Assembly: GCA_028281165.1 (NCBI GenBank)
Contig: JANQKI010000266.1
Coordinates: 1-64,000 of the forward strand
Origin: Opitutaceae bacterium
GTDB lineage: Bacteria; Verrucomicrobiota; Verrucomicrobiia; Opitutales; Opitutaceae
Direction: 5' to 3'
Length of the DNA: 64,000 nt
Both the position numbers and the translations under genes were made by a program. How positions within the stretch are numbered: the stretch's first letter is position 1; the number at the start of each line of letters is the position of its first letter. The notes below the pieces were generated by a model. That model ran no database searches. It was not told the origin of the DNA and was given only the letters and a program-made list of their open reading frames with translations. Below, in pieces: positions 8,176-20,745 of this stretch.

Positions 8176-8751
8176 ATGAATCTCCTCGCCCATGCTCTCT
8201 TAGCGAGATCTGAAAATGACGACGTCTTAACGGTCAACGTGCTTTGGGACTTTCTTGGTAGAGATTTACGAGACGATCCTCGCGTTTTCGTAAAAAGAGG
8301 CAGTAGCGTTCATCGATTGATTGATCGCGAGACGGATACATCGCCTGAATTCGCCAAGGGCCTCAACCTTGTATCGGAGAGACGTCAAAACACGGCCGGA
8401 ATCATAGTGGATATCGCGCTCGACTTCGCCTTGTCGCAGGACTGGTCGAATTACAGCAATGAAGGCCGTCTTGATTTTATCGATACCATCTACGAACGCA
8501 TGACCGCTGCCGCTCCATCAATCAGCGAAGAAGCGGAACGCCTCGTCTCTAACATGAAAGCCCTCAACTGGTTCAAATCATACGGAGAGATAGAAGGACT
8601 GAAAATCGTATTTCAGAGAATGGCCCAGAGAAATCGCCTTCTCGATTCATTAGTCGGAGCAGAAGTGGAAATTCTATCGGAAATAGAATCCTATGCTAAA
8701 ATAATGCGTTCCTTGTATCCAAAGATTGAGGAAAAGATTAGCAGCCTATAG
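8176..8751 (+). CDS. AcpH-like ACP phosphodiesterase (DUF479 family)
   Basis: 191 residues. The N-terminus MNLLAHALLA, the NVLWDFLGRD block and HRLIDRETDTSPEF match the family signature MNxLAH...GNLxxDF...HRxIDxxTDxHP. Those His/Asp residues form the metal-dependent phosphohydrolase site. E. coli AcpH releases 4'-phosphopantetheine from holo-ACP. The gene starts 28 bases after the radical SAM gene on the same strand, so cotranscription is likely. The family call is good; the exact substrate is inferred. Confidence 0.78.
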   Translation: MNLLAHALLARSENDDVLTVNVLWDFLGRDLRDDPRVFVKRGSSVHRLIDRETDTSPEFAKGLNLVSERRQNTAGIIVDIALDFALSQDWSNYSNEGRLDFIDTIYERMTAAAPSISEEAERLVSNMKALNWFKSYGEIEGLKIVFQRMAQRNRLLDSLVGAEVEILSEIESYAKIMRSLYPKIEEKISSL

Positions 8752-8786
8752 CTATAGCAATGGTGGCGAGATCACCGCCACATCTA

Positions 8787-9659
8787 TTATACTTTCCGAA
8801 CCAGACACCACATGTTGTCGCTAGTGGGCATTCGGTCAAGAAGCCCCATTTTGGCGATATGGAAACCGCAAGCCTCGATCATGGTCTTAAGCGACTTTGG
8901 AGTAAAATAGTTAACATGATCGGGGTAACGAAAACCGCACCACTTGTCCTGCCGTATCTTGCGGTTCAGGCTGCCGAAATTCGGAACCTTGATGGTTGCT
9001 AGCCCTCCTGATCTCAGCTTGCGATAACACATTCTCAAAAGAGGCATGGGATTGATCTCATGCTCGAGGAAAGCGCACATGATCGCGTAATCGAAAAGGG
9101 AATCCTCATAGCTTTCCAACCCTCCAATGGCATCGCTTTGAACCACTTCTCCCGAAAATGGCTTCAATTTACCAGAGGCTTGATTGGCAAGGCTCTTGGA
9201 GATTTCAATCCCGTACGGTAAAACTTGGATACCGTATTGCTTTAATAGAATCTCGGTAGTTTCGGCTAGGATACTTCCATGCGAGCAACCTATGTCCACA
9301 AATCTCAGAGGCTCGCCTGCATCGCTACGTTTTGCATGAAGATTTCGCAGAATCTTGACCGCCCTAACGACCATCCTGTGTTTTCTCTGGCGAAGGAGTT
9401 TTCGCAGCCCTTTACCGGCAGAACTTAAAACAGAAACGATGGGCTCTGCCTCTCGTCGGCGTTGTCTTTCATCCTCAATCGTTTTTTCCCAGGCAAAATC
9501 CTCCTCGAAAGCCTCGTACACCGGTGGATTTTCCAGATAAACAAATCCAGTTTCAGAGCACTGCTTTATCAGCCAACCATCCTTGGAGTAGCGACTAAGT
9601 GTATGCGTTTCCGTTCTGCTTTCCGCCAGTGGGCAATCGCGAGTCAGTGATTCAGTCAT
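8787..9659 (-). CDS. Class I SAM-dependent methyltransferase
   Basis: 290 residues. Motif I of the Rossmann-type SAM-binding domain is FVDIGCSHGSILAETTEI (near 118-135), followed by an acidic YGIEISKS loop and a QSDAIGGL segment. The C-terminal half has the Methyltransf_23-like KVPNFGSLNRKI...PDHVNYFTP block. That block is common in methyltransferases acting on sugar or polysaccharide precursors, but the substrate is not identifiable. The N-terminal 40 residues contain cysteines (C9, C34) that might be a zinc-binding lead. It is convergent with the AcpH-like gene and stands alone. Confidence 0.8.
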   Translation of the reverse strand: MTESLTRDCPLAESRTETHTLSRYSKDGWLIKQCSETGFVYLENPPVYEAFEEDFAWEKTIEDERQRRREAEPIVSVLSSAGKGLRKLLRQRKHRMVVRAVKILRNLHAKRSDAGEPLRFVDIGCSHGSILAETTEILLKQYGIQVLPYGIEISKSLANQASGKLKPFSGEVVQSDAIGGLESYEDSLFDYAIMCAFLEHEINPMPLLRMCYRKLRSGGLATIKVPNFGSLNRKIRQDKWCGFRYPDHVNYFTPKSLKTMIEACGFHIAKMGLLDRMPTSDNMWCLVRKV

Positions 9660-9758
9660 TTTCGGGAAACGTAGCGATCATGTGACAAATCCATCAAGCG
9701 AAAAGCCTTCTGACCGTTCCGCTAGGGAATTGGGACAGCGAAGCGACGAAGGTAGATC

Positions 9759-10424
9759 CTACTCGAAGTAGCTCTGTAATTCTTCAGCCGTCCAAGGACC
9801 TCTGGAACCGATTTCTTCCTTAACGGATGCAACTTGATCTGCCGTCACTTCACTAGCCTCGTTACCCCAAGACTGACGGATGTATGTGACGATATTGGCA
9901 ACATCCCGGTCCTCCAGATCGCCCACTACCGACGCCATATTGCTGTTGTATTGCTGGCCCATAACAGTGATCGGCCCAGCAATCCCAGCTAGAACAATTT
10001 TAATCGGCAAGGCCGCATCTTCATGCAGCACCCACTCCGATCCAGCCAAAGGAGGAAAATTACCGGCCATACCTTCGCCATTAACTTGGTGGCAAGATGA
10101 GCAGCGCATCATATACAACTCCTGTCCGATCTCAAATGGAGTCTTCTCAACACCGGCTCCAGCGGGGACATAATTTAGAAAAGCGTGTATATCGCCACGT
10201 TCACTCAGGTACATTTGCGGATCATATCCGGCCGTGTGTCGACGCAGTTGAAACCAGCCGAAAGTGAGGACAATGATAAACGCCGTGGAGGAGAAGAAAG
10301 CCACTGCGGATCCCGCAACCCGTTGCCTTCGGATTCGAGAATGGACTTTGACGATACTTTCGTCCGAGGCCTTACTCTCATCGATTCCAGGCAGATTTAG
10401 AACGTCTGGATTGTCTTCGCTCAT
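9759..10424 (-). CDS. Membrane-anchored monohaem cytochrome c (CcoP-like), last gene of the ACIII operon
   Basis: 221 residues: cytoplasmic N-terminus (1-37), one TM helix (about 38-60) and a periplasmic class I cytochrome c domain. The haem c site is C108-S-S-C111-H112 (MMRCSSCHQVNGEGM). FPPLAGSEWV and the possible axial Met region near YNSNMASVV are typical of CcoP-like domains. CcoP normally has two haems; this has one. It overlaps the CcoO-like gene by one base and ends the minus-strand respiratory operon. It probably passes electrons from alternative complex III onward, but its terminal oxidase is not evident here. Confidence 0.85.
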   Translation of the reverse strand: MSEDNPDVLNLPGIDESKASDESIVKVHSRIRRQRVAGSAVAFFSSTAFIIVLTFGWFQLRRHTAGYDPQMYLSERGDIHAFLNYVPAGAGVEKTPFEIGQELYMMRCSSCHQVNGEGMAGNFPPLAGSEWVLHEDAALPIKIVLAGIAGPITVMGQQYNSNMASVVGDLEDRDVANIVTYIRQSWGNEASEVTADQVASVKEEIGSRGPWTAEELQSYFE

Positions 10425-11047
10425 CAGAGACCAATTTTCTCCGGACTAGGAGCTTCGGGCAGATCATAGTCCACTTTAAGGCTTAACATATAAGCAACCA
10501 GAGCTTCCGCTCGACGTGTCGGCACCACCTCGTAGCCAGGATCGACTTCATACCCCTCTGGAAGATCCAAAGCTCGATCCGAAGGCTGGCCAATAACGGG
10601 TCTAACGTCGTAAAGAAATGAATACGATGGCATATTGGATCCAGCGGACGTGATCTGCGAATTGTAGAAATGCAAATGATGCCATTCGCTATCAAGCTCC
10701 TTTGCGCCAACGTTCGAGAGATCAGGACCAATCCGACGGTCCCCAATAAGAGCTGGATATTGACCAACATAGTCTCTCGCCACGGATTGACGGATGCCCC
10801 AGGCTCGATCGATATCGGAACCAACCGTCAAACGCGTTTGCTGTGTGTGGCAAGAAACGCATCCCATTTGCTGATACACAAGCTTCCCTTGATCTGCAGC
10901 TCCAGGGGCAATACGCGGCTTGCGCTCGCTATCATCATAGATAGCGGAAAGCTGACCGCTTTGCTGGATTGGACGATTAACTAAATTGGCCCAAGAAAAG
11001 GCCAGCACGATGAACAATCCAACGAATATAAAAGGACCTCTGTTCAC
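10424..11047 (-). CDS. CcoO-like membrane-anchored cytochrome c
   Basis: 207 residues with an N-terminal membrane anchor (about 5-22) and one haem c site, C63-V-S-C66-H67, within YQQMGCVSCHTQQTRL. The downstream pattern (RRIGPDLSNVGAK, EWHHLHFYNS, SAGSNMPSYSFLYD) follows CcoO of cbb3 oxidases, including the methionine expected as axial ligand in SNMP. It sits directly after a CcoN-like gene (four-base overlap) and before a CcoP-like gene. The N-O-P order of a cbb3 operon is thus preserved, although the N subunit cannot be catalytic. Confidence 0.88.
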   Translation of the reverse strand: MNRGPFIFVGLFIVLAFSWANLVNRPIQQSGQLSAIYDDSERKPRIAPGAADQGKLVYQQMGCVSCHTQQTRLTVGSDIDRAWGIRQSVARDYVGQYPALIGDRRIGPDLSNVGAKELDSEWHHLHFYNSQITSAGSNMPSYSFLYDVRPVIGQPSDRALDLPEGYEVDPGYEVVPTRRAEALVAYMLSLKVDYDLPEAPSPEKIGL

Positions 11048-12567
11048 GATACGCTAGCCTCCAATTCGGGAGATTCACCAATAAGAGTTCCCGTCTCCTC
11101 TTTTTCACTACGTGTAGAGAACATGAAAAGAGTAAAAGAAACCAGGAAAGCGATTGCCCCTAAAAGCATGAGGAACATGCCCAGTGAAGCCATCACATAG
11201 TAGCTTTTCAGATTCACGACGATAGACAACACGCTGACCGTACTGCCATTCATCAACTCGCCTTCTTGCAGACCACCAGTAATCAGACTAGACACCAGAA
11301 GGAGAACGCCGCTGAGCTGCATCCAGAAATGGATCTCCGCAAGGGCTGCCGAAGGGAGCTCCTTATTCAAAAGTCGAGAAAGTATGAAATACAGAAACCC
11401 TGAAAAGATCATACTAGCAAAACCAAGCAAGCCGAGAAGTTGAACTCCATTGCTGAAGGAAGAGAATTGAGCGACTTCCTGGGTTGAGCGAAGCGAGCCG
11501 TAAATGTAATAAGCTCCGAAGACAATAAAGCCGATGCAGCCGAAAAGGACGAATCTAAGCGAGAGCGTATCCCAAATACGCGTGAAGTTCGCGAACAGGG
11601 TAGACAAAAATTGAATACCGAAAACGGTAAGGGGATAAAGGATACCAAAAGCCGCTATTATTCCAACGGCAGTTACCCAAGCCGGAATCGGACCGTTAAT
11701 CAACTCCGCGGAACCCGCGCAGCTGGCGAAAATAAACCAAGACCAGAAAGCCCTGCCGGAGTGATTGTAGCCAACGATCGGCGTTCCCAGAGCCTTTGGC
11801 AGCAGATAGTAAACGCAGGCCAGAGCCAGGGGCACAATCACTATCATCAACAAATTGTTGGCGTACCAAGATCCTACCAGATACTGTAGAGACCCCTGCG
11901 AAGGCTCGCGTATCAGCATGATTTGAGCAGCTGTGTAGATCCAAGCGAAAGCAAACAACGCGGCCAAAACATACCATTGAGACGCATAAGAAGCGCGATG
12001 AACGCGCTCGCGAAAAGTCAACAGCCCCCACAGCCCCATACCAATAAAAGAAGCTAGCAGAATCGGAGCAATGAAGGGAGGCATCTCAAGCCATTCGTAA
12101 GGAAGCTGACCGCTGACGGTTAGGCTCTCTCTCCAATTGAGAGGCAATGTGCCCCCCATCAGAATGCCAATCAATCCGACTACGAGGGCCACATTCCAAA
12201 TGGAAAGCGACACCGTAAGCAGAAATCCATTACCGATAGGAGCTCCGCCTAAACGAGCCAGGAGCCAAAAAGCGCAAGCTAGACCTGCATTGAAGAGCCA
12301 TCCATAAATCAGACTGTTCCAAAATACAGGCTCGACTTTTCCGTATGTAAGCCATTCGCAGCTGCCAAGGAATCCGGGGGAGTGTAGCTTGATCGATGCG
12401 ATAAGTCCAAAAATCAAGGAGACAACGAACCAAAAAGCAGCAGGTTTGATCATTCCCAACAATGGGTAGCGAATTGAGCTATCGATGCTCCATTGCGTCT
12501 CGCGGCCCTTTAGCTCGCCGGAGAGTTCCGGCCAAAGCGAAGAGCATATGTTGGAGATGAATTTCAT
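11044..12567 (-). CDS. CcoN-like membrane protein lacking all haem and copper ligands
   Basis: 507 residues with about 12 hydrophobic segments. The pattern follows CcoN, subunit I of cbb3 oxidases, but only four histidines exist and none falls on a ligand position. By eye, the low-spin haem His in RPLHTNAV is Phe (EPVFWNSL). The CuB His in YGHNAV is Asn (YANNLL). The GPHH pair is Ala-Glu (GSAELI), with the cross-linked Tyr replaced by Ala. The GHVHSGALG pair is Ser and Gly (FSNGVQLLG). It should therefore bind no haem b, haem b3 or CuB. The frame is intact and overlaps the CcoO-like gene by four bases. A structural or docking role with alternative complex III is inference. Confidence 0.85.
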   Translation of the reverse strand: MKFISNICSSLWPELSGELKGRETQWSIDSSIRYPLLGMIKPAAFWFVVSLIFGLIASIKLHSPGFLGSCEWLTYGKVEPVFWNSLIYGWLFNAGLACAFWLLARLGGAPIGNGFLLTVSLSIWNVALVVGLIGILMGGTLPLNWRESLTVSGQLPYEWLEMPPFIAPILLASFIGMGLWGLLTFRERVHRASYASQWYVLAALFAFAWIYTAAQIMLIREPSQGSLQYLVGSWYANNLLMIVIVPLALACVYYLLPKALGTPIVGYNHSGRAFWSWFIFASCAGSAELINGPIPAWVTAVGIIAAFGILYPLTVFGIQFLSTLFANFTRIWDTLSLRFVLFGCIGFIVFGAYYIYGSLRSTQEVAQFSSFSNGVQLLGLLGFASMIFSGFLYFILSRLLNKELPSAALAEIHFWMQLSGVLLLVSSLITGGLQEGELMNGSTVSVLSIVVNLKSYYVMASLGMFLMLLGAIAFLVSFTLFMFSTRSEKEETGTLIGESPELEASVS

Positions 12568-12605
12568 TTACCGTATCAAAATACCTTGGACGCTCAGGAC
12601 TCCCC

Positions 12606-12887
12606 CTATTCGCTGTACTCAGCGATTACCAGCTCCTTGGCTCGTTCGATAGGCAGACGCACTTTTCCGCTAGTCGGGTCAATAACCGCGTAGGAAGAAA
12701 GGGCTTCCACTTCCTTAGCCTGATGCTCGGATAGCGAAGGGCGCTCAACGCTCATTTCGCTTTCCTCAGCATTATCATCGTTATCCAAATACGTGACATC
12801 CAATAGAAAATAGAAGACGAGGAAAACGCCCAGGATGGCAACGATGGCCGGGAAGGAGCTTCTTGAAGGTGTTTGTACGGAACTCAT
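12606..12887 (-). CDS. Small single-TM protein of the ACIII operon
   Basis: 93 residues from the ATG at 12887. A longer upstream extension would run inside actF, so this start, 14 bases after the actF stop, is preferred. One TM helix (about 12-32, FPAIVAILGVFLVFYFLL), an acidic stretch and a periplasmic C-terminal tail with AVIDPTSGKVRLPIERAKEL are visible. A short VRxPIxRAxEL segment like this occurs in small proteins near ACIII or oxidase genes; that is recollection, not a search. It may be an accessory subunit linking actF to the CcoN-like protein. Confidence 0.72.
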   Translation of the reverse strand: MSSVQTPSRSSFPAIVAILGVFLVFYFLLDVTYLDNDDNAEESEMSVERPSLSEHQAKEVEALSSYAVIDPTSGKVRLPIERAKELVIAEYSE

Positions 12888-12900
12888 TTCAAGATGCAGA

Positions 12901-14142
12901 TTAGAAATTGTGGTTAAGCGACTCCACGATACGCGGATCGCGTATGGGAATAATCCTGTTTTTGCGATAGCTAGTCCAATAGGCCCAGAGCAATACTCCA
13001 CCCGCTCCAACGATGCCCGCCGCATACCAGATCAAATTAACAGGACTGGAAAACAACTGAACGGGTTCTCCATGGCTATCTTTGAGGGACGGCAATACGT
13101 TAAAGAAGATATCAACTAACTGCATAGTCAGAATCCAAATCGCGATAAAGATCATGGACTTGTGATTCACCTTTAGCGGAAACTGCAGCAAGTAGAGGAA
13201 TGGGAAGAGGAAATGCCCGAAAATAAGAAGCATGGATACTTCCCACCATAGGCCTTGTTCACGCAGATTGTACCAGAACGTCTCTTCGGGAATGTTCGCA
13301 TTCCAAATCAGGAAGTACTGCGAGAAACTAATATAGCCCCAGAAAACTGTGAAGGCGAAGCTGAGTGTCGCCAAATCATGGAGATGCTTGTTATTGAAAA
13401 TGCCTTTGAGCGGACCTTTCGAGACGAGAAAAATCGAAGCAAGGATGAGCACAGCCAAGGCGGCTCTCATGGCATTGGTGAAGAACCAAACGCCAAACAT
13501 GGTGGAGAACCAGTGATACTCCAAACTCATAATCCAGTCGAAACCCGCCATGGTCCAAGTCAAGGCTACGGCAAAAAGCCCTCCAGCAGCCAGCTTACGT
13601 GAAGCGAACGTGTGGCTTGGACTTCCATCAGCATCCTGAGCGATCGAGTGCTTGCGGAAAGCTCGGGCGAAAAGTATCCAAGTTCCAAAAGCAATCAACG
13701 CCCGTATCCAGAAAAAGGATTCGGTCAACCACCATTGCTTTTTTACCCACAGGATGTCTTCTCCAACCGTACCGTGACCATGAAGCGGTTCAGTGGGATC
13801 CATCCAAATCCAAAGCACGCCCTGATTCCCACTAAGATACGTAAGCAGGAAAACCGGAATAAACAAGATGCCCAGATAAGGCATAGCCGAAAGAAAGTTT
13901 TCCGCCTGACGACGAACGACAACCGACCAGGATGCGTCCATGATGTGGTGGATCAATACCAGAAACAGCATGCCAACGGATATCGATGTAATAAATAGCA
14001 AGCCGATAAGGTAGGAGAAGGCGGCCATTCGTGTATCCACGAAAAAGCCGACCATAGAAATTAAAAGCCCCGTAGCTCCAATAAGTAGCCACTTCTTGGG
14101 ATTCGGGATCGAGGCGTCGTGTTGCATCGCTTCAGCGCTCAT
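12901..14142 (-). CDS. actF: Alternative complex III membrane subunit ActF
   Basis: 413 residues with about ten hydrophobic segments, in the size range of ActF, the smaller NrfD-like (PsrC-type) quinol-interacting subunit. Recognisable stretches are HHIMDASWSVVVRRQAENFL near 65-85, VKKQWWLTESFFWIRA, and TMAGFDWIMSLEYHWFSTMF. It is one of two homologous membrane subunits with ActC that carry quinol oxidation by alternative complex III. The start overlaps the actE stop (14139-14142, ATGA), so the genes are coupled. Nothing in it is unusual. Confidence 0.92.
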   Translation of the reverse strand: MSAEAMQHDASIPNPKKWLLIGATGLLISMVGFFVDTRMAAFSYLIGLLFITSISVGMLFLVLIHHIMDASWSVVVRRQAENFLSAMPYLGILFIPVFLLTYLSGNQGVLWIWMDPTEPLHGHGTVGEDILWVKKQWWLTESFFWIRALIAFGTWILFARAFRKHSIAQDADGSPSHTFASRKLAAGGLFAVALTWTMAGFDWIMSLEYHWFSTMFGVWFFTNAMRAALAVLILASIFLVSKGPLKGIFNNKHLHDLATLSFAFTVFWGYISFSQYFLIWNANIPEETFWYNLREQGLWWEVSMLLIFGHFLFPFLYLLQFPLKVNHKSMIFIAIWILTMQLVDIFFNVLPSLKDSHGEPVQLFSSPVNLIWYAAGIVGAGGVLLWAYWTSYRKNRIIPIRDPRIVESLNHNF

Positions 14143-14756
14143 AGTCCAAGCTCCTCTCTCTTGGCAGGAGTTAAATCATTCGCGGTGCCATTGGCCGCTC
14201 GCTGCAGAGCTCGCATATAGAGAACCACTGCCCAACGGTCCTCAACAGACAACTTGTCGGCATAGGAAAACATAAGACCCTTCCCATTAGTAATAACATC
14301 ATAGAGCTGTCCATCGGGATAATTAAGGAAAAAAGGCTGGGTCAGATCTGCAACCGGCATTGTAACGGCATACTTCTTGATTATGCTATCAGCATTGCCC
14401 GCTTGGCCATGGCAGACGGCGCAGTAGATATTGTAGCGATCCTCGCCTCGGTCCATCAGAGCGTTGCTGATTTCAAGCCCGTCGGGCATACCCTTGCCAA
14501 ACTCCGTCCCGATCTTGCCGGTCTCCATGTATTCGTCCTCGTAGTACGCACCGCGAGCGACTGTGTTTTCCACCGGCAAACGATCCGTACGACCGTCGGC
14601 AAAAAAGGCGCTTTCGCTTTGCGGCATGTATTTTGGCATGCGATCCATGTCGTCAAATACCTCCAGAGGAGGAGACAGCTTCTTAGCTCCACGGAAGCCG
14701 AGTATTGAAATTGTCGATATGACTAGAAAAATGAAAATCAAGTATACGTAACGCAT
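14139..14756 (-). CDS. actE: Alternative complex III monohaem cytochrome c ActE
   Basis: 205 residues with an N-terminal signal anchor (about 3-20) and a haem c site at C112-A-V-C115-H116 (YNIYCAVCHGQAG). The C-terminal cytochrome fold includes DRWAVVLYMRALQRA. ActE is the monohaem electron exit of alternative complex III. The gene follows actD by three bases and overlaps actF by four, in canonical order. A periplasmic location is expected. Confidence 0.93.
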   Translation of the reverse strand: MRYVYLIFIFLVISTISILGFRGAKKLSPPLEVFDDMDRMPKYMPQSESAFFADGRTDRLPVENTVARGAYYEDEYMETGKIGTEFGKGMPDGLEISNALMDRGEDRYNIYCAVCHGQAGNADSIIKKYAVTMPVADLTQPFFLNYPDGQLYDVITNGKGLMFSYADKLSVEDRWAVVLYMRALQRAANGTANDLTPAKREELGL

Positions 14757-14758
14757 TT

Positions 14759-15316
14759 CTAGTCCTCTAGTTCGGAAATATCCGTTGGCTTAAGGCCTTG
14801 AATAAAGGCTCGCGTCTTCTCTAGATCGAATTGCGGATCGTCCTTTTCGATGCAGAGGAAGAATTTATCGTCAGTACCCTGAGCGATATCATCGTACTTG
14901 AGTACGGGATGGTAATGCATGGGCAGCTTATTGAGAATGAACATCCCGATGATCGAGGCGAAGGCCGAGAAGAGGATGGTCAACTCGTAGGCAACGGGAA
15001 AAGCGAAGTGCGGGCTAAAGAACGGCTTGCCGCCTACAATCAGTTTATAACCCTCGCTTAGGATACCGAGATCCAGATCCGAGGCGCCCGTGAAAGCGAT
15101 CATAAGCATGCCTGTAGTGATACCTGTGATACCGCCTATAATTGTAAATCGAGGAACCAGCGAACGCTTCAATCCCATAGCCGGATCGAGCCCGTGCACT
15201 GGGAAAGGCGTAACCACGTCCCACTGCTTGAAACCCGCTTCTCTCACCTTTCTGGCCGCATTCATGATGTCGGCTGGCGAGTCGAACTTAGCGATCAATC
15301 CACATTTTTTGGCCAT
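14759..15316 (-). CDS. actD: Alternative complex III subunit ActD (DUF3341)
   Basis: 185 residues. The N-terminal soluble half (IAKFDSPADIMNAARKVREA, FPVHGLDPAMGLKRS) is typical of DUF3341. Two TM helices follow (about 58-78, starting FTIIGGITGITTGM, and about 105-130, YELTILFSAFASIIGMF), then a cytoplasmic tail. ActD is a non-redox scaffold subunit with a two-helix hairpin. It lies between actC and actE as expected. The N-terminal domain resembles a metal-binding ferredoxin-like fold without obvious ligands. Confidence 0.93.
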   Translation of the reverse strand: MAKKCGLIAKFDSPADIMNAARKVREAGFKQWDVVTPFPVHGLDPAMGLKRSLVPRFTIIGGITGITTGMLMIAFTGASDLDLGILSEGYKLIVGGKPFFSPHFAFPVAYELTILFSAFASIIGMFILNKLPMHYHPVLKYDDIAQGTDDKFFLCIEKDDPQFDLEKTRAFIQGLKPTDISELED

Positions 15317-15344: not shown

Positions 15345-16766
15345 TTAGTGGTGATGCGGGTCAGCCTGAGGCGTCACAGCTTTGATTTCAGCCATGGCCA
15401 TTAGAGGCAGGAACCGAAGGAAAAGGAGGAAGAGAACAGAGAAGACGCCGAACGTACCAACGTAGGTAAAAATATCGACGACTGTCGGTGAGTAGTAGCC
15501 CCAGCTCGAGGGAACGAAATCGCGAGCCAATGAAGTAACGGCGATGACGAAGCGCTCGAACCACATGCCAATATTTACGAAGATCGAAATGATCCAGACT
15601 AAAGCCGGATTTTGCCTCACCCATTTAAACCAGAACAGTTGCGGCGAAATCACATTACAGGAAATCATAATCCAGTAGGACCAAGCGTAGGGACCAAACG
15701 CGCGGTTTACGAAAGCGAATATTTCGAAGTCGTTAGCGCCATACGCCGCAATGAAGAACTCCATGGCATAGGCGTATCCCACCATTGATCCCGTGGCCAA
15801 AATGATCTTGGTCATACAATCGATGTGATACTGCGTAATGAGATCTTCGAGACGATAAATCGCCCGCAGCGGTAGCATGAGGGTCAGCACCATGCCGAAT
15901 CCAGAGAAGATAGCTCCAGCCACGAAGTAAGGCGGGAAAATGGTGGTATGCCATCCAGGGAGCAGGGAAATAGCAAAGTCGAAGGATACGATGGTATGAA
16001 CCGAAAGAACGAGCGGGGTAGAAAGACCGGCCAAGAGCAAGTAGCACATTTCGTAGTTGCTCCAATGGCGATTGGATCCTCTCCAGCCCATGGCGAAGAT
16101 CCCATAGCAAATTTGCTTGATCTTGCTCTTGGCTCGATCCCGCACGGTAGCCAAGTCAGGAATCAAACCAATGTACCAGAAAAGCACAGACACGGTTCCG
16201 TACGTCGAAACCGCGAAAACGTCCCACAGGAGCGCAGACCGGAAGTTTGGCCAAATCGCATTGGCATTCGGGAAAGGGAACAGGTATCCTGGATACAAGG
16301 CGAACCAGACGCGACCAACGTGGAAAACCGGAAAGAGAGCCGCGCAAACCACCGCGAAGATGGTCATGGCCTCAGCAGCCCGATTGATGGAGGTACGCCA
16401 TTTTTGGCGGAGCAGACAGAGAATAGCAGAAATCAACGTACCAGCGTGGCCAATACCGATCCAAAAGACGAAGTTAACGATGGCCCAGCCCCAATTCATT
16501 GGATTAGCCAATCCCCAAACGCCAGTGCCAACTGCGACCAAGTAAACCAGACCGAAAACGGTGAAGCTAGCCGTTAGGCAGGCCACGATAAAGCACGCCC
16601 ACCACCAGGTCGGCGTCTTCTCTTCAATGATTCCGCAGATCTTTTCCGTAATCCAATTAAAACTACGATTGTTCTCGACCAGAACGGGACGAGGCACATC
16701 CGCTGGATTAACTTCGCTGAGAATGGCTGGCCGAGCTTCAGAGAGAGGAGAGTGAGCGCTAGCCAT
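15345..16766 (-). CDS. actC: Alternative complex III membrane subunit ActC (NrfD-like)
   Basis: 473 residues with about ten TM helices, the larger NrfD/PsrC-type quinol-binding subunit. Typical stretches are [40 protein letters not shown] and [20 protein letters not shown]. It binds menaquinol or ubiquinol at the outer face and passes electrons to the ActB iron-sulfur chain. It begins at the last base of actB and is followed by actD after 28 bases. The C-terminus ends in DPHHH. Confidence 0.94.
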
Positions 16767-19700
16767 TAGTGGGATCCTCCTGTGTCATGGTCAGAGTCGT
16801 GAGTGTCGTGAGAATCTCCACTCCCGTGATGATCGCCATCGTGGGAACCGTGAGGAGTCTTTTGATCGTATTCAACTTTTGCGAGAGGTTGATCTGAGTA
16901 GTCAGGCATTTCCGGATTCGGATTACGCAGCCTGGCAAGATAAGTAGTGCGAGGTCGGACGTTTAGGTATCCAAGAACTGAATAGTTGCGTTCGTTTTCG
17001 CGGAGTTTAGCGACGCGGCTTTCCGGATCCAGAAGATCGCCGAAAACGATAGCCTCCGTCGGACAAACTTGTTCGCAAGCCGTCTTGATGGTTCCGTCCG
17101 GAACCTTCACGTTTGGACTGTCCTTGGCTTTAACCTTCTGATCGATCTTGGCCTGCTGGATACGCTGCGTGCAATAGGTGCACTTTTCCATGACACCACG
17201 CATGCGGATGGAAACGTCTGGATTTTGGGCCATCTGGGTAAGCTCGGGCATTCCTTTCGGAGCCAAGGGACCCTCGTAAAGCCGATCAAGAGGGCGTTGC
17301 TGGTAATCGAAGAAATTGAAACGACGTACCTTGTAGGGACAGTTATTGGCACAGTAGCGTGTTCCGATACAGCGATTGTAGGCCATCGTGTTAAGGCCTT
17401 CGGAATCGTGCACCGTAGCATTCACCGGACAAACCTGCTCGCAGGGTGCAGTTTCGCAATGCATACAACCAACGGGCTGCAGCGAAACCTGAGGATCTTC
17501 AGGAATTTCGGTTTTCTCCAAACCGGAAGAGAAGTAGCGATCCAAGCGAATCCAGTGCATTTCGCGACCGCGGCGCACTTGATCGCGACCTACGATTGGA
17601 ATGTTATTCTCGCTCTGACAAGCAACCACGCAGGCGTTGCAACCCGTGCAGACGTTCAGATCGATATTCATCCCCCATTGATGATTGCCGGTGTAATCGG
17701 GATGCTCGTAAATCGATTCGCCACGCGGAGTCGTCGTGATCTTCCCCTGGGTAGACATGTATTTGTCTTTCCCGTAAATCGGAGGAGAGTGAGACTCCGC
17801 GCCCATATGGCTAACCCAGTCTGGGCTGTGATGATAATCGTCAAGGTTCGCCTCTCGAACAATGGCCCTACCCTCCATTGACCAGTGTTCCTGAGTATTA
17901 GTGAGCTGGAATTCTTCGCCAGTAGCTTCGATTGTCGCGCCTGGCGCGAAGGCCATGGTGCTAGAAGTACGAACCGAATAAGCATTGTATCCAGAATTTT
18001 GGCCAATGCGACCCGTCTTGGTTCTTCCGTAGCCAAGAGGAAGAACGAGGGTGTAATTGTCCAAGCCTGGCAAAATATGAACCGCACCCGTAACTTCCAG
18101 ATCGCCAACTTTGACCTTATAGACGGGAGCGAAAGTTCGACTGTCGCGTACGCGATTCGGGTTTTTGCGAGCCACTTGGATCATCGAATCCGAGGCTACG
18201 ATACCCTGCTCCTTAGCGAGACGAGGACTAATGATAATGGCATTGTCCCAAGTCAGTTTGTTCATCGGATCAGGACACTCTTGAAGCCATCCATTGTTAT
18301 TATAGCGGCCGTCGTCGACTTTGGCGTCGTTGACGAAAACGACTTCCAGACTATCAGAACTGGGAGCTGCGGGTTGAGAAAAGTTTTCCAGAACTCCGAC
18401 GAGCTTCGAACCTGAAACTAAAGAATGGGTTTTCTTGTAGCCTTCGCCCCTCGCGAACCCGTCGTGGAGGAATTTATCGAAAGCGCGCTTTTCTTTAGTT
18501 TCGGAAGAACTTTGGAAGGTTTCGTAGACCAGGCTATGTCCATCTGGATTAGCCTCGCCCAGCAATCGAGCCAGTACTTCGATCTCGGAAAGACCGTCGA
18601 ACAAAGGCAGGATCATAGGCTGCTGGGGAACGATGTGACCATCATAGGTGCGGCCGTCTCCCCAGGTTTCCAGATAGTGCGCTTGAAGAATATGGTATTC
18701 GGATTTCGCTGACGTCTCGTCCTCGTAGTATCCAAGTCGAGCCACCATGCCAACTTTATCCAAGAGAGCCTCGAAGCCAAGATCAGCAGGGGCGTTGTAA
18801 ACGGGATTGCCACCCATGACCAACAAAGCAGTCACGTTTCCATCGGAAATGGCTGCGGCTAAATCTTGGATGGAGCTCGACTCGGTATCGACATCCTCAA
18901 CGAACGTTAGCGTCTCGCCGAGGTTCCCAAGCTTTTCATTAATGAGAAGGCCAATAGCATGAGCTTCAGGCGAAAGCTGAGCTCCAACGTAGACCAAGCT
19001 CTTGCCTTTGTGATGCGACAAGTCTTCGGCGCACTTGGCGATCCAAGTCTTCGTATCCTCATCGAAACTACCGGTTAGATTTTCGAAAATCGGTTGCAGA
19101 GCCTCGCCTTCGACGCCCAACTCGATATTCAGAGCGATACCCGCCAGGAATCCGATCATTTGGCTGGAAGCCAGCCGCTTGCGATGGTCCGCCATGGCGC
19201 CGGTGATCGTGAAATTGCCTTCGGCTACATAAAGGCGATTCATCTCGTCTTTGCTGCTGCGGACACGACGTCCATCAGCAAACTGCTTGGAGAACGTCAA
19301 CGCGCCAGGATCCTGTCCGAGAAAATCGCCATCGACGCTGAGAATGCGTTCAGCGCGCGAAAAATCGTAGAGAGGCTTAAGGTTAGGTCCAGCCACAGAC
19401 TTAGCCGCTTTAGCCCCACTGTCTGTATCCACAGGCTCATACTCTGCCCAGATGGCTTGAGGGTAGGCCTTCATGAAAGCTTTCTTCAAACGAAGCCGCG
19501 TGGGTGAAGAAGACTTTTCGGCCAGAATAGCAAAACGATCGCCCTTATTTTCACTCAGCTTGTCTTTGAATGCGCTAAGCGCATCAAAGACCTCGCTCTG
19601 CGAGAGGGCCGATCCCTTGCGCGTGTGTCTAGCGGCGCGATCCGGATCGTAGAGCTCTAAAACGGAGGCTTGGGCCTTTAGAGAAGTGCTTCCATTGTAT

Positions 19701-20092
19701 CCCGGCAAATCGCCGTTGCCCTCGATTTTGGTGGGCCGACCGGTGTGCGTTTCGACCAAAAGAGGAGCACTTTCTCCACGAACTGAATACGAACTTGCGT
19801 AGTAAAGCGGTTCGCCAGGAATAAGGTGCTCCGGCGCCTTCGAATGAGGGAGGATGTGAGACTCGGGACGACGGCAACCGGAAAAGCCGATTCCTCCCAA
19901 GGCAAAGGAGGCAGCCATGATCTTGAAAAAATGACGACGATCAACCTCGCTCAATTCAGAGGCTTCGGGACCGAATTCCCGCTCCACTTGCTCGAGGAAT
20001 TGGGGAGTTTGTGCCAAGTCGTCGAGACTGCGCCAGTAGCGCGGTCCGGTCAGTTCCGCTTTGCTAGTGGGATTCGAATTTAGAGGTTTCAT
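16766..20092 (-). CDS. actB: Alternative complex III iron-sulfur subunit ActB
   Basis: 1,108 residues from the ATG at 20092, which overlaps the actA stop (ATGA); a start 18 bases upstream is less likely. An N-terminal twin-arginine-like segment ([19 protein letters not shown] at 52-53) precedes a possible lipobox, GFSGC with Cys73. A molybdopterin-oxidoreductase-like domain fills about 80-740 but shows no cofactor cysteine ligand, as expected for ActB. The C-terminal ferredoxin domain carries [39 protein letters not shown] and CEQVCP motifs for the cluster chain. It ends in a His/Asp/Gly-rich tail that might bind metal. Confidence 0.95.
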
Positions 20093-20745
20093 CGGTGGCA
20101 GCCTGAGCAACTTTGGGGAGGATTAACGTTCCATTCATTGACGAGCTCTTTGCCCATCTCGATTTGAGCTAGCTCGCCACCAGGGTGAACCCAGTCTAAA
20201 TCGAATACATGCTCGACAGGGCGAATTTTCTTCTCCGGATGCCGATGGCAGTCCAAACACCAGCTCATGCTCTGTGGCTCAGCGTGCGAGACCACTTCCA
20301 TTTTGTTAACCTGCCCGTGACACTCCACGCAAGAGATACCGCGATTAACGTGAACCGAGTGATCAAAGTAAACATAGTCAGGCACCTCATGGATACGCAC
20401 CCAGGGGACGGGTTCGCCTGACTGATAACTGGCTCGAACAGGCTCAAGAAGCTCGCTATCCGGTTTGATCATGCTGTGGCAATTCATACAAGTTGAGCTT
20501 GCCGGAACGTTCGCATGACTAGATTGATCGACCTTGCTGTGGCAATAGCGGCAATCCATACCTAATTCTCCAACGTGAAAGCTGTGATCATAGGGCACAG
20601 GCTGTATTGGCTCATAGCCTACACGCGTGTACTTGGGCGTGATGTAATAGGTGATTCCGGCTAGGCCAGTGGTTACGAAAACACCAAGAAATATGACGAT
20701 CTTCAGCGGTAGAGCATTAGCCGCTTTAGGAAAAACTTTAGACAT
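20089..20745 (-). CDS. actA: Alternative complex III pentahaem cytochrome c ActA
   Basis: 218 residues with an N-terminal TM anchor (about 13-35) and five CXXCH sites at 65-69, 86-90, 139-143, 163-167 and 213-217. Five haems is the ActA hallmark. It carries electrons from ActB toward ActE or an external acceptor on the periplasmic side. The last CXXCH is almost at the C-terminus (CSGCHR). It overlaps actB by four bases and is the first large gene of the operon; a small exported-looking ORF lies 19 bases upstream. Confidence 0.96.
   Translation of the reverse strand: MSKVFPKAANALPLKIVIFLGVFVTTGLAGITYYITPKYTRVGYEPIQPVPYDHSFHVGELGMDCRYCHSKVDQSSHANVPASSTCMNCHSMIKPDSELLEPVRASYQSGEPVPWVRIHEVPDYVYFDHSVHVNRGISCVECHGQVNKMEVVSHAEPQSMSWCLDCHRHPEKKIRPVEHVFDLDWVHPGGELAQIEMGKELVNEWNVNPPQSCSGCHR

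Follow-up and report, generated by a model that had tools for sequence, protein, structure and literature searches.

Haem-copper oxidase subunit I genes are common markers of high-affinity aerobic respiration. In the cbb3-type (C-family) enzymes subunit I is CcoN, a COX1-fold protein whose gene has those for CcoO and the dihaem cytochrome CcoP as neighbours. Physical association of alternative complex III (ACIII) with (c)aa3 oxidases is known in Rhodothermus and Flavobacterium, where an oxidase module lies downstream of the ACIII operon and direct electron transfer has been proposed, according to the part of PMC5928083 available to us. In the same part, ACIII itself offers the example of a membrane subunit that stays in a complex after losing its active site, since ActF, compared with ActC, lacks the quinol site. 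The available text of PMC10715153 reports a deranged COX1-like protein of Acetobacter which is without all metal ligands yet retained, and proposes a structural role for it. For verrucomicrobial methanotrophs, the accessible portions of PMC8498564 and PMC6688271 list cbb3, aa3 and ba3 oxidases and place the cbb3 genes immediately next to ACIII; both papers cite the ACIII work of Refojo and colleagues. In the open-access literature searched, those ACIII papers aside, we found no account of a ligand-less CcoN in an ACIII operon.

The locus described here lies in a window of 64,000 nucleotides, the whole stretch of DNA that was analysed, which is contig C224 of a draft genome with 5.12 Mb and 93.7% completeness; the nearest named relative is an Opitutaceae MAG (L003). 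On the minus strand actA, actB, actC, actD, actE and actF are followed by a small gene for a one-helix protein, by the genes for a CcoN-like, a CcoO-like and a CcoP-like protein (N, O and P below), which overlap or abut, and then by an unrelated methyltransferase-like gene (Table 1). The ActD, NrfD and cytochrome matches, together with the same gene order in relatives, identify the first six genes as an ACIII operon. The five CxxCH motifs of ActA were found in 87 of 88 relatives.

Table 1 Features of the ACIII-N-O-P operon and sites of the lost ligands in N
Feature	Position	Strand	Basis
P, CcoP-like monohaem cytochrome c, CSSCH kept	9759..10424	-	Pfam Cytochrom_C 56 bits; motif
O, CcoO/FixO-like monohaem cytochrome c, CVSCH kept	10424..11047	-	Pfam FixO 68 bits; PDB CcoO match; motif
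N, ligand-less CcoN-like (COX1-fold) membrane protein, 507 aa	11044..12567	-	Pfam, TIGR00780, PDB matches, alignments
L377, site of second low-spin haem b His	11437..11439	-	alignments
V375, site of haem b3 His	11443..11445	-	alignments
A287-E288, sites of second and third CuB His	11704..11709	-	alignments
A281, site of active-site Tyr (TM VII)	11725..11727	-	alignments
N237, site of first CuB His	11857..11859	-	alignments
F82, site of TM-II His of low-spin haem b	12322..12324	-	alignments
Small one-helix protein between actF and N, 93 aa from likely ATG	12606..12887	-	occurs in related operons
ActF	12901..14142	-	position and conservation; zero Pfam match
ActE, monohaem cytochrome c	14139..14756	-	
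ActD	14759..15316	-	Pfam ActD 196 bits
ActC (NrfD family)	15345..16766	-	Pfam NrfD 73 bits
ActB (Fe-S/molybdoenzyme-like), start codon uncertain	16766..20110	-	presumably ActB
ActA, pentahaem cytochrome c	20089..20745	-	

Like CcoN, N has the COX1 fold. PF00115 matches residues 43-466 with 112 bits against a cut-off of 34.8 and spans model positions 10-436 of 436, i.e. the whole core, and N can be aligned with CcoN over residues 38-485. Among solved structures the cbb3 CcoN chains are its closest matches (E 3e-15 to 1e-11). It also has both a CcoO-like and a CcoP-like partner, each monohaem, which for P is a difference from the cbb3 enzymes. Further differences from CcoN are the linkage to ACIII, the absence of all six ligand histidines and of the active-site Tyr, and a score well short of the CcoN equivalog cut-off (89.6 bits where TIGR00780 asks for 583), which a ligand-complete relative likewise misses (250 bits). 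The ligand positions were read against a ligand-complete fused CcoN-CcoO protein encoded in the same genome (contig C192); HMMER alignments to the solved CcoN chains gave the same register, and the seven letters were unchanged in larger alignments, as they were for earlier rows in the N2 and N3 alignments. In these alignments the low-spin haem b pair is replaced by F82 and L377, the haem b3 histidine by V375, the three CuB histidines by N237, A287 and E288, and the Tyr by A281. An AlphaFold model of N (P0001 and L003) reached only pLDDT 37.8 and pTM 0.28, too low for use in a fold search.

The initial annotation, made by eye, had given the replacing residues as Phe, Asn, Ala/Glu, Ser/Gly and Ala. 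All of these agree with the alignments except Ser/Gly, the last histidine pair being Val375/Leu377. Its statement that only four histidines occur in the 507 residues, none at a ligand site, is correct, as His 62, 190, 269 and 413 all lie elsewhere, and the comparison it suggested with CcoN structures and related homologues upheld the absence of ligands. The gene is also intact and overlapping as described, with a frame running from ATG to stop without internal stops and sharing 4 bases with the O gene (GTG start at 11047). A same-genus orthologue, 77% identical, has identical letters at the seven sites. As both the operon and the ligand loss recur in all 13 loci of the window clade, the loss is not an assembly accident. 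Judged by its ligand residues, N is outside the functional CcoN family, though descended from CcoN.

The absence of ligands stands, but it is no peculiarity of this genome: N belongs to an ACIII-linked family of CcoN-like proteins in which many members are ligand-less. With the window protein as query, a homologue at E 1e-30 or better was found in 256 of 372 genomes of the order, and in the phylum sample 122 of 387 genomes matched a ligand-complete relative as query at 1e-40 or better, canonical CcoN included. We read 136 N-like loci, including a canonical control, and ACIII genes stood beside N in 128 of them. These 128 were hand-picked from the search matches, mostly one or two per genus with extra loci in families f11, f19 and f29 (L003 and L034 are one contig and were counted once), and the counts are not population frequencies. 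The operon was found across the class, and in the ACIII-linked loci read the order ActA-F-N-O-P held wherever the contig permitted. All six histidines and the Tyr were present in 32 of the 128 loci, while 41 had no ligand histidine and 55 had one to three. The state is nearly all-or-nothing, because a possible CuB/haem b3 site was found in none of the 96 ligand-less loci, both low-spin haem b histidines in only two and the Tyr in one. The residues that replace the ligands differ between clades. The two loci with the haem b pair (L114 and L115, genomes G399 and G525, family f31) show the pattern HNSQRYH, in which exactly these two histidines are kept and the CuB and haem b3 sites are lost; this N may be a b-only electron carrier and a decay intermediate. 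Intact, ligand-bearing homologues in relatives, which the initial annotation had counted as evidence against its proposal, do exist, even in the window's own family (f1), yet they do not refute it, because the closest relatives are ligand-less in 13 of 13 cases, and the loss can be read from the ligand-complete ones.

The ligand-complete members are probably real cbb3-like O2 reductases wired to ACIII, since their residues follow the cbb3 pattern, with the Tyr placed six residues ahead of the HH pair, they match solved CcoN with E 5e-55, and N is the sole COX1 gene found, with no cytochrome bd match, in three of the 27 ligand-complete genomes surveyed (G046 and G113, 98-99% complete, and G041, 80%). 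Another strong COX1 gene was present in all 52 ligand-less genomes surveyed. In the window genome contig C29 carries CoxA with CoxB, and C192 the fused CcoNO; neither is linked to the operon. In other orders (families f29, f30, f33, f36 and f37) 22 of 29 ACIII-linked loci, 21 of the 22 being ligand-less, have an A-type CoxA gene behind N-O-P, in the same orientation and 1.4-2.4 kb downstream of N; CoxA was found downstream of N-O-P in none of the 99 Opitutales loci. CoxC and CoxD follow CoxA in the example that was annotated. Replacement of CoxB by N-O-P in the aa3-linked operons, where CoxA is followed by CoxC, was considered and rejected, as CoxB lies a few kb further on with its CuA motif, which was kept in 20 of 20 CoxB genes examined. 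Unlike in the Rhodothermus and Flavobacterium supercomplexes, the oxidase-like subunit next to ACIII is here incapable of oxidase function, and in other orders c-type cytochromes separate ACIII from the aa3 gene.

With moderate confidence we propose that N is the dismantled oxidase half of an ACIII-cbb3-like assembly, kept as a structural scaffold for a c-haem relay to another oxidase. In the old assembly the COX1-fold half would have lost haem b, haem b3 and CuB and stayed as a structural membrane subunit, which would hold the O and P cytochromes next to ACIII. Electrons would then pass from quinol through ACIII and the c haems of O and P to CuA of another terminal oxidase. In several other orders the receiving enzyme would be the aa3-type oxidase encoded just downstream, and in the window organism an aa3-type or the fused CcoNO oxidase encoded elsewhere. 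We infer the physical assembly, the electron route and the absence of bound metal in N. The loss of a function from a membrane subunit that stays in its complex would parallel ActF, which has an NrfD fold in place of the COX1 fold of N.

Selection on the gene bears on whether N has any role. Using our own Nei-Gojobori script (several pairs with saturated or near-saturated dS printed as inf and were left out), dN/dS of N in the window clade was 0.099 (dS 0.33, unsaturated), 0.065 (dS 1.4) and 0.059 (dS 2.4), in agreement with the selection that the initial annotation had supposed, and other ligand-less pairs gave 0.07-0.30, similar to O and P. For columns invariant in ligand-complete members, retention in the ligand-less ones is 0.95-0.98 for ActA-F, 0.90 for P and 0.89 for O, compared with 0.62 for N. 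Of the 104 such columns of N, 44 fall below 60%, including every one of the seven ligand columns. Such relaxed cofactor-site columns, and the fast evolution (long stems) of some ligand-less clades, would fit a neutral relic, a dead gene carried inside an essential operon. Against this stand dN/dS values well below 1 (0.06-0.30) in every ligand-less pair with measurable dS, stop-free full-length frames across the order-wide list, one ligand-complete contig excepted, and 37 columns at 85% or more in the 96 ligand-less rows. A relic is hence very improbable, and is rejected by dN/dS; neither frame disruption nor a ratio near 1 was found in N. The placement of N between the ACIII module and the two cytochromes was likewise borne out, and the CxxCH motif is kept in 96 of 96 CcoO-like and 93 of 96 CcoP-like proteins of the ligand-less loci (two had no match and one no motif). 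O has also changed, as about half of the ligand-less members have lost W124 and H128, which do not vary in ligand-complete ones; 57 of 74 ligand-less members retain the methionine of O that aligns as distal ligand. The low dN/dS, the 37 conserved columns and the retained c-haem motifs of O and P indicate that N is a working protein without its cofactors, kept under purifying selection. Continued redox work by N, with a cofactor bound through other residues, is as improbable as a dead gene: the four histidines of the window protein are conserved in the congener and the f31 members keep the haem b pair, but none of the four is at a ligand position, H269 is Leu in ligand-complete members, and the letters at the old sites vary between clades (F/A/Q/S, N/E/G/S/Q). 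The fold could instead have kept or gained a proton path that couples electron flow in ACIII to pumping, and nearly invariant membrane residues such as Y253, Y254, P257 and K258, as well as the conformational coupling thought to occur in ACIII itself, are in line with this; the charged and polar residues at the old active site vary between clades, however, and we consider ion translocation unlikely. Only slightly better are the prospects of N as an assembly or stabilising factor, acting either in cytochrome maturation or on the other oxidase; such a role has been proposed for the metal-less protein of Acetobacter, which is kept with CtaB (in the available text of PMC10715153). The position of N before O and P would suit such a factor, but N is fixed between ACIII and structural cytochromes and not beside assembly genes. 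The Acetobacter protein, compared here by its description in that text only, belongs to another lineage and accompanies ctaB rather than ACIII and c-type subunits. Given the absent ligands, the intact frame, the purifying selection and the operon placement, the non-catalytic structural role suggested in the initial annotation is the best reading; N would most likely work as a supercomplex scaffold.

How often the ligands were lost depends on the tree. On a tree of concatenated ActA, ActB, ActC and ActF with 92 rows (10 of 102 were dropped for missing ACIII coverage) the state changes 17 times. For the 89 rows having all of ACIII, O and P, the ACIII tree needs 17 changes, or 19 losses if ligands were never regained, the O+P tree 10 or 14 changes and the N-gene tree 3; plain counts on N trees gave 2-3 changes. 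The few changes on the N tree, and the grouping of the ligand-less rows together, are what would be expected if N genes had been swapped between operons, with two old paralogues, one of them ligand-less, in place of many separate losses. Because the N alignment strongly rejects the ACIII topology and vice versa (LG+F+G4; p-AU near 0 for N against the ACIII topology), such replacement has to be taken seriously, although we think it somewhat unlikely. The 10-14 changes of the O+P tree speak against it. Furthermore, the ligand-less N rows are long-branched and attract each other, in one tree joining across families, and the N-tree count alone was therefore rejected. When lost clades were placed one at a time among 31 ligand-complete rows, with a subset of some clades (10 of the 13 loci listed for the window clade), 13 of 25 landed in their ACIII-tree neighbourhood, sisters being judged by eye from the printed trees. 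The window clade adjoins G311 of its own family in both its N placement and the ACIII tree. In AU tests a position outside the ligand-complete Opitutales was rejected for f11 g93 (p 0.003) and f9 (p 0.0066) but not for the window clade (p 0.47), and an ancient single loss is thus rejected for at least the former two. On these trees no fewer than two losses are clearly nested, and probably there were many others. The window clade likely lost its ligands separately from f11 g93 and f9, since neither neighbours it in the ACIII tree.

More tentatively, we suggest that an ancestral ACIII-cbb3-like assembly was dismantled many times in parallel in Verrucomicrobiota (as often as about 17-19 times by the ACIII tree), the haem-copper centre being deleted each time while the fold and the c-haem chain were kept. 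The outcome would be a new respiratory module in which ACIII has a built-in relay of c-type cytochromes on an oxidase core without metals. In several orders this relay would feed the aa3 oxidase of the same operon, and it would also be the 'cbb3 oxidase' of the methanotrophs. Five f30 genomes carry 2-4 pMMO subunit A genes, and we infer that they are verrucomicrobial methanotrophs. Their COX1 family consists of two A-type genes, one or two ba3, one cNOR and the ACIII-linked ligand-less N (that of G453 scored too low for the COX1 listing and was identified from the operon reading); canonical CcoN was absent from the COX1 matches of the five genomes. The ACIII-linked 'cbb3-type' oxidase described for verrucomicrobial methanotrophs and Opitutaceae in the accessible portions of PMC6688271 and PMC8498564 very likely belongs to the same gene family. 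In contrast to an oxidase, N in four of the pMMO-bearing genomes (loci L155-L158 in G453, G515, G436 and G614) keeps one of the six ligand histidines and no Tyr, and an aa3 oxidase gene is found in the same operon. As the ACIII-adjacent protein is the ligand-less N, with no canonical CcoN among the COX1 matches, the published methanotroph 'cbb3 oxidase' is very likely this protein and, from its residues, incapable of oxidase function. A widespread group of subunit I genes unable to reduce O2 would mean that wherever a cbb3 oxidase next to ACIII has been claimed from genome data, as for methanotrophs, the claim needs correction. The family also forms a natural series, from ligand-complete through haem-b-pair-only to ligand-less members in one conserved operon, which makes a non-catalytic role of an oxidase subunit in a supercomplex directly testable.

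The small protein encoded between actF and N could be a further subunit. The longer open reading frame had no Pfam match, and most relatives checked share a C-terminal (V/A)xLPIxxA-like motif. In family f29 (loci L120, L121, L123, L127 and others) the small gene has gained a CxxCH cytochrome c domain, as seen in L120, and with it an extra haem beside the ligand-less N. ACIII frames are split in the draft genomes of L065 (actB, actE), L098 (actB, actC, actD, actF) and L141 (actB), probably by assembly errors, and N is intact in all three. Terminator-like patterns in window positions 8700-14200 numbered 15, compared with 6.9 (sd 2.9) in shuffles, and were mostly intragenic and on the coding strand. 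Locus L055 (G013:C1, at about 3.33 Mb) has a second, ligand-complete N within a 999-aa open frame, without ACIII genes; an A-type CoxA gene lies about 9 kb away. Other classes of the phylum also have ligand-complete N-like genes that lack a clear ACIII operon (L166-L168 in f49 and L133 in f81), and it is possible that these are the outgroup of the ACIII-linked N family.
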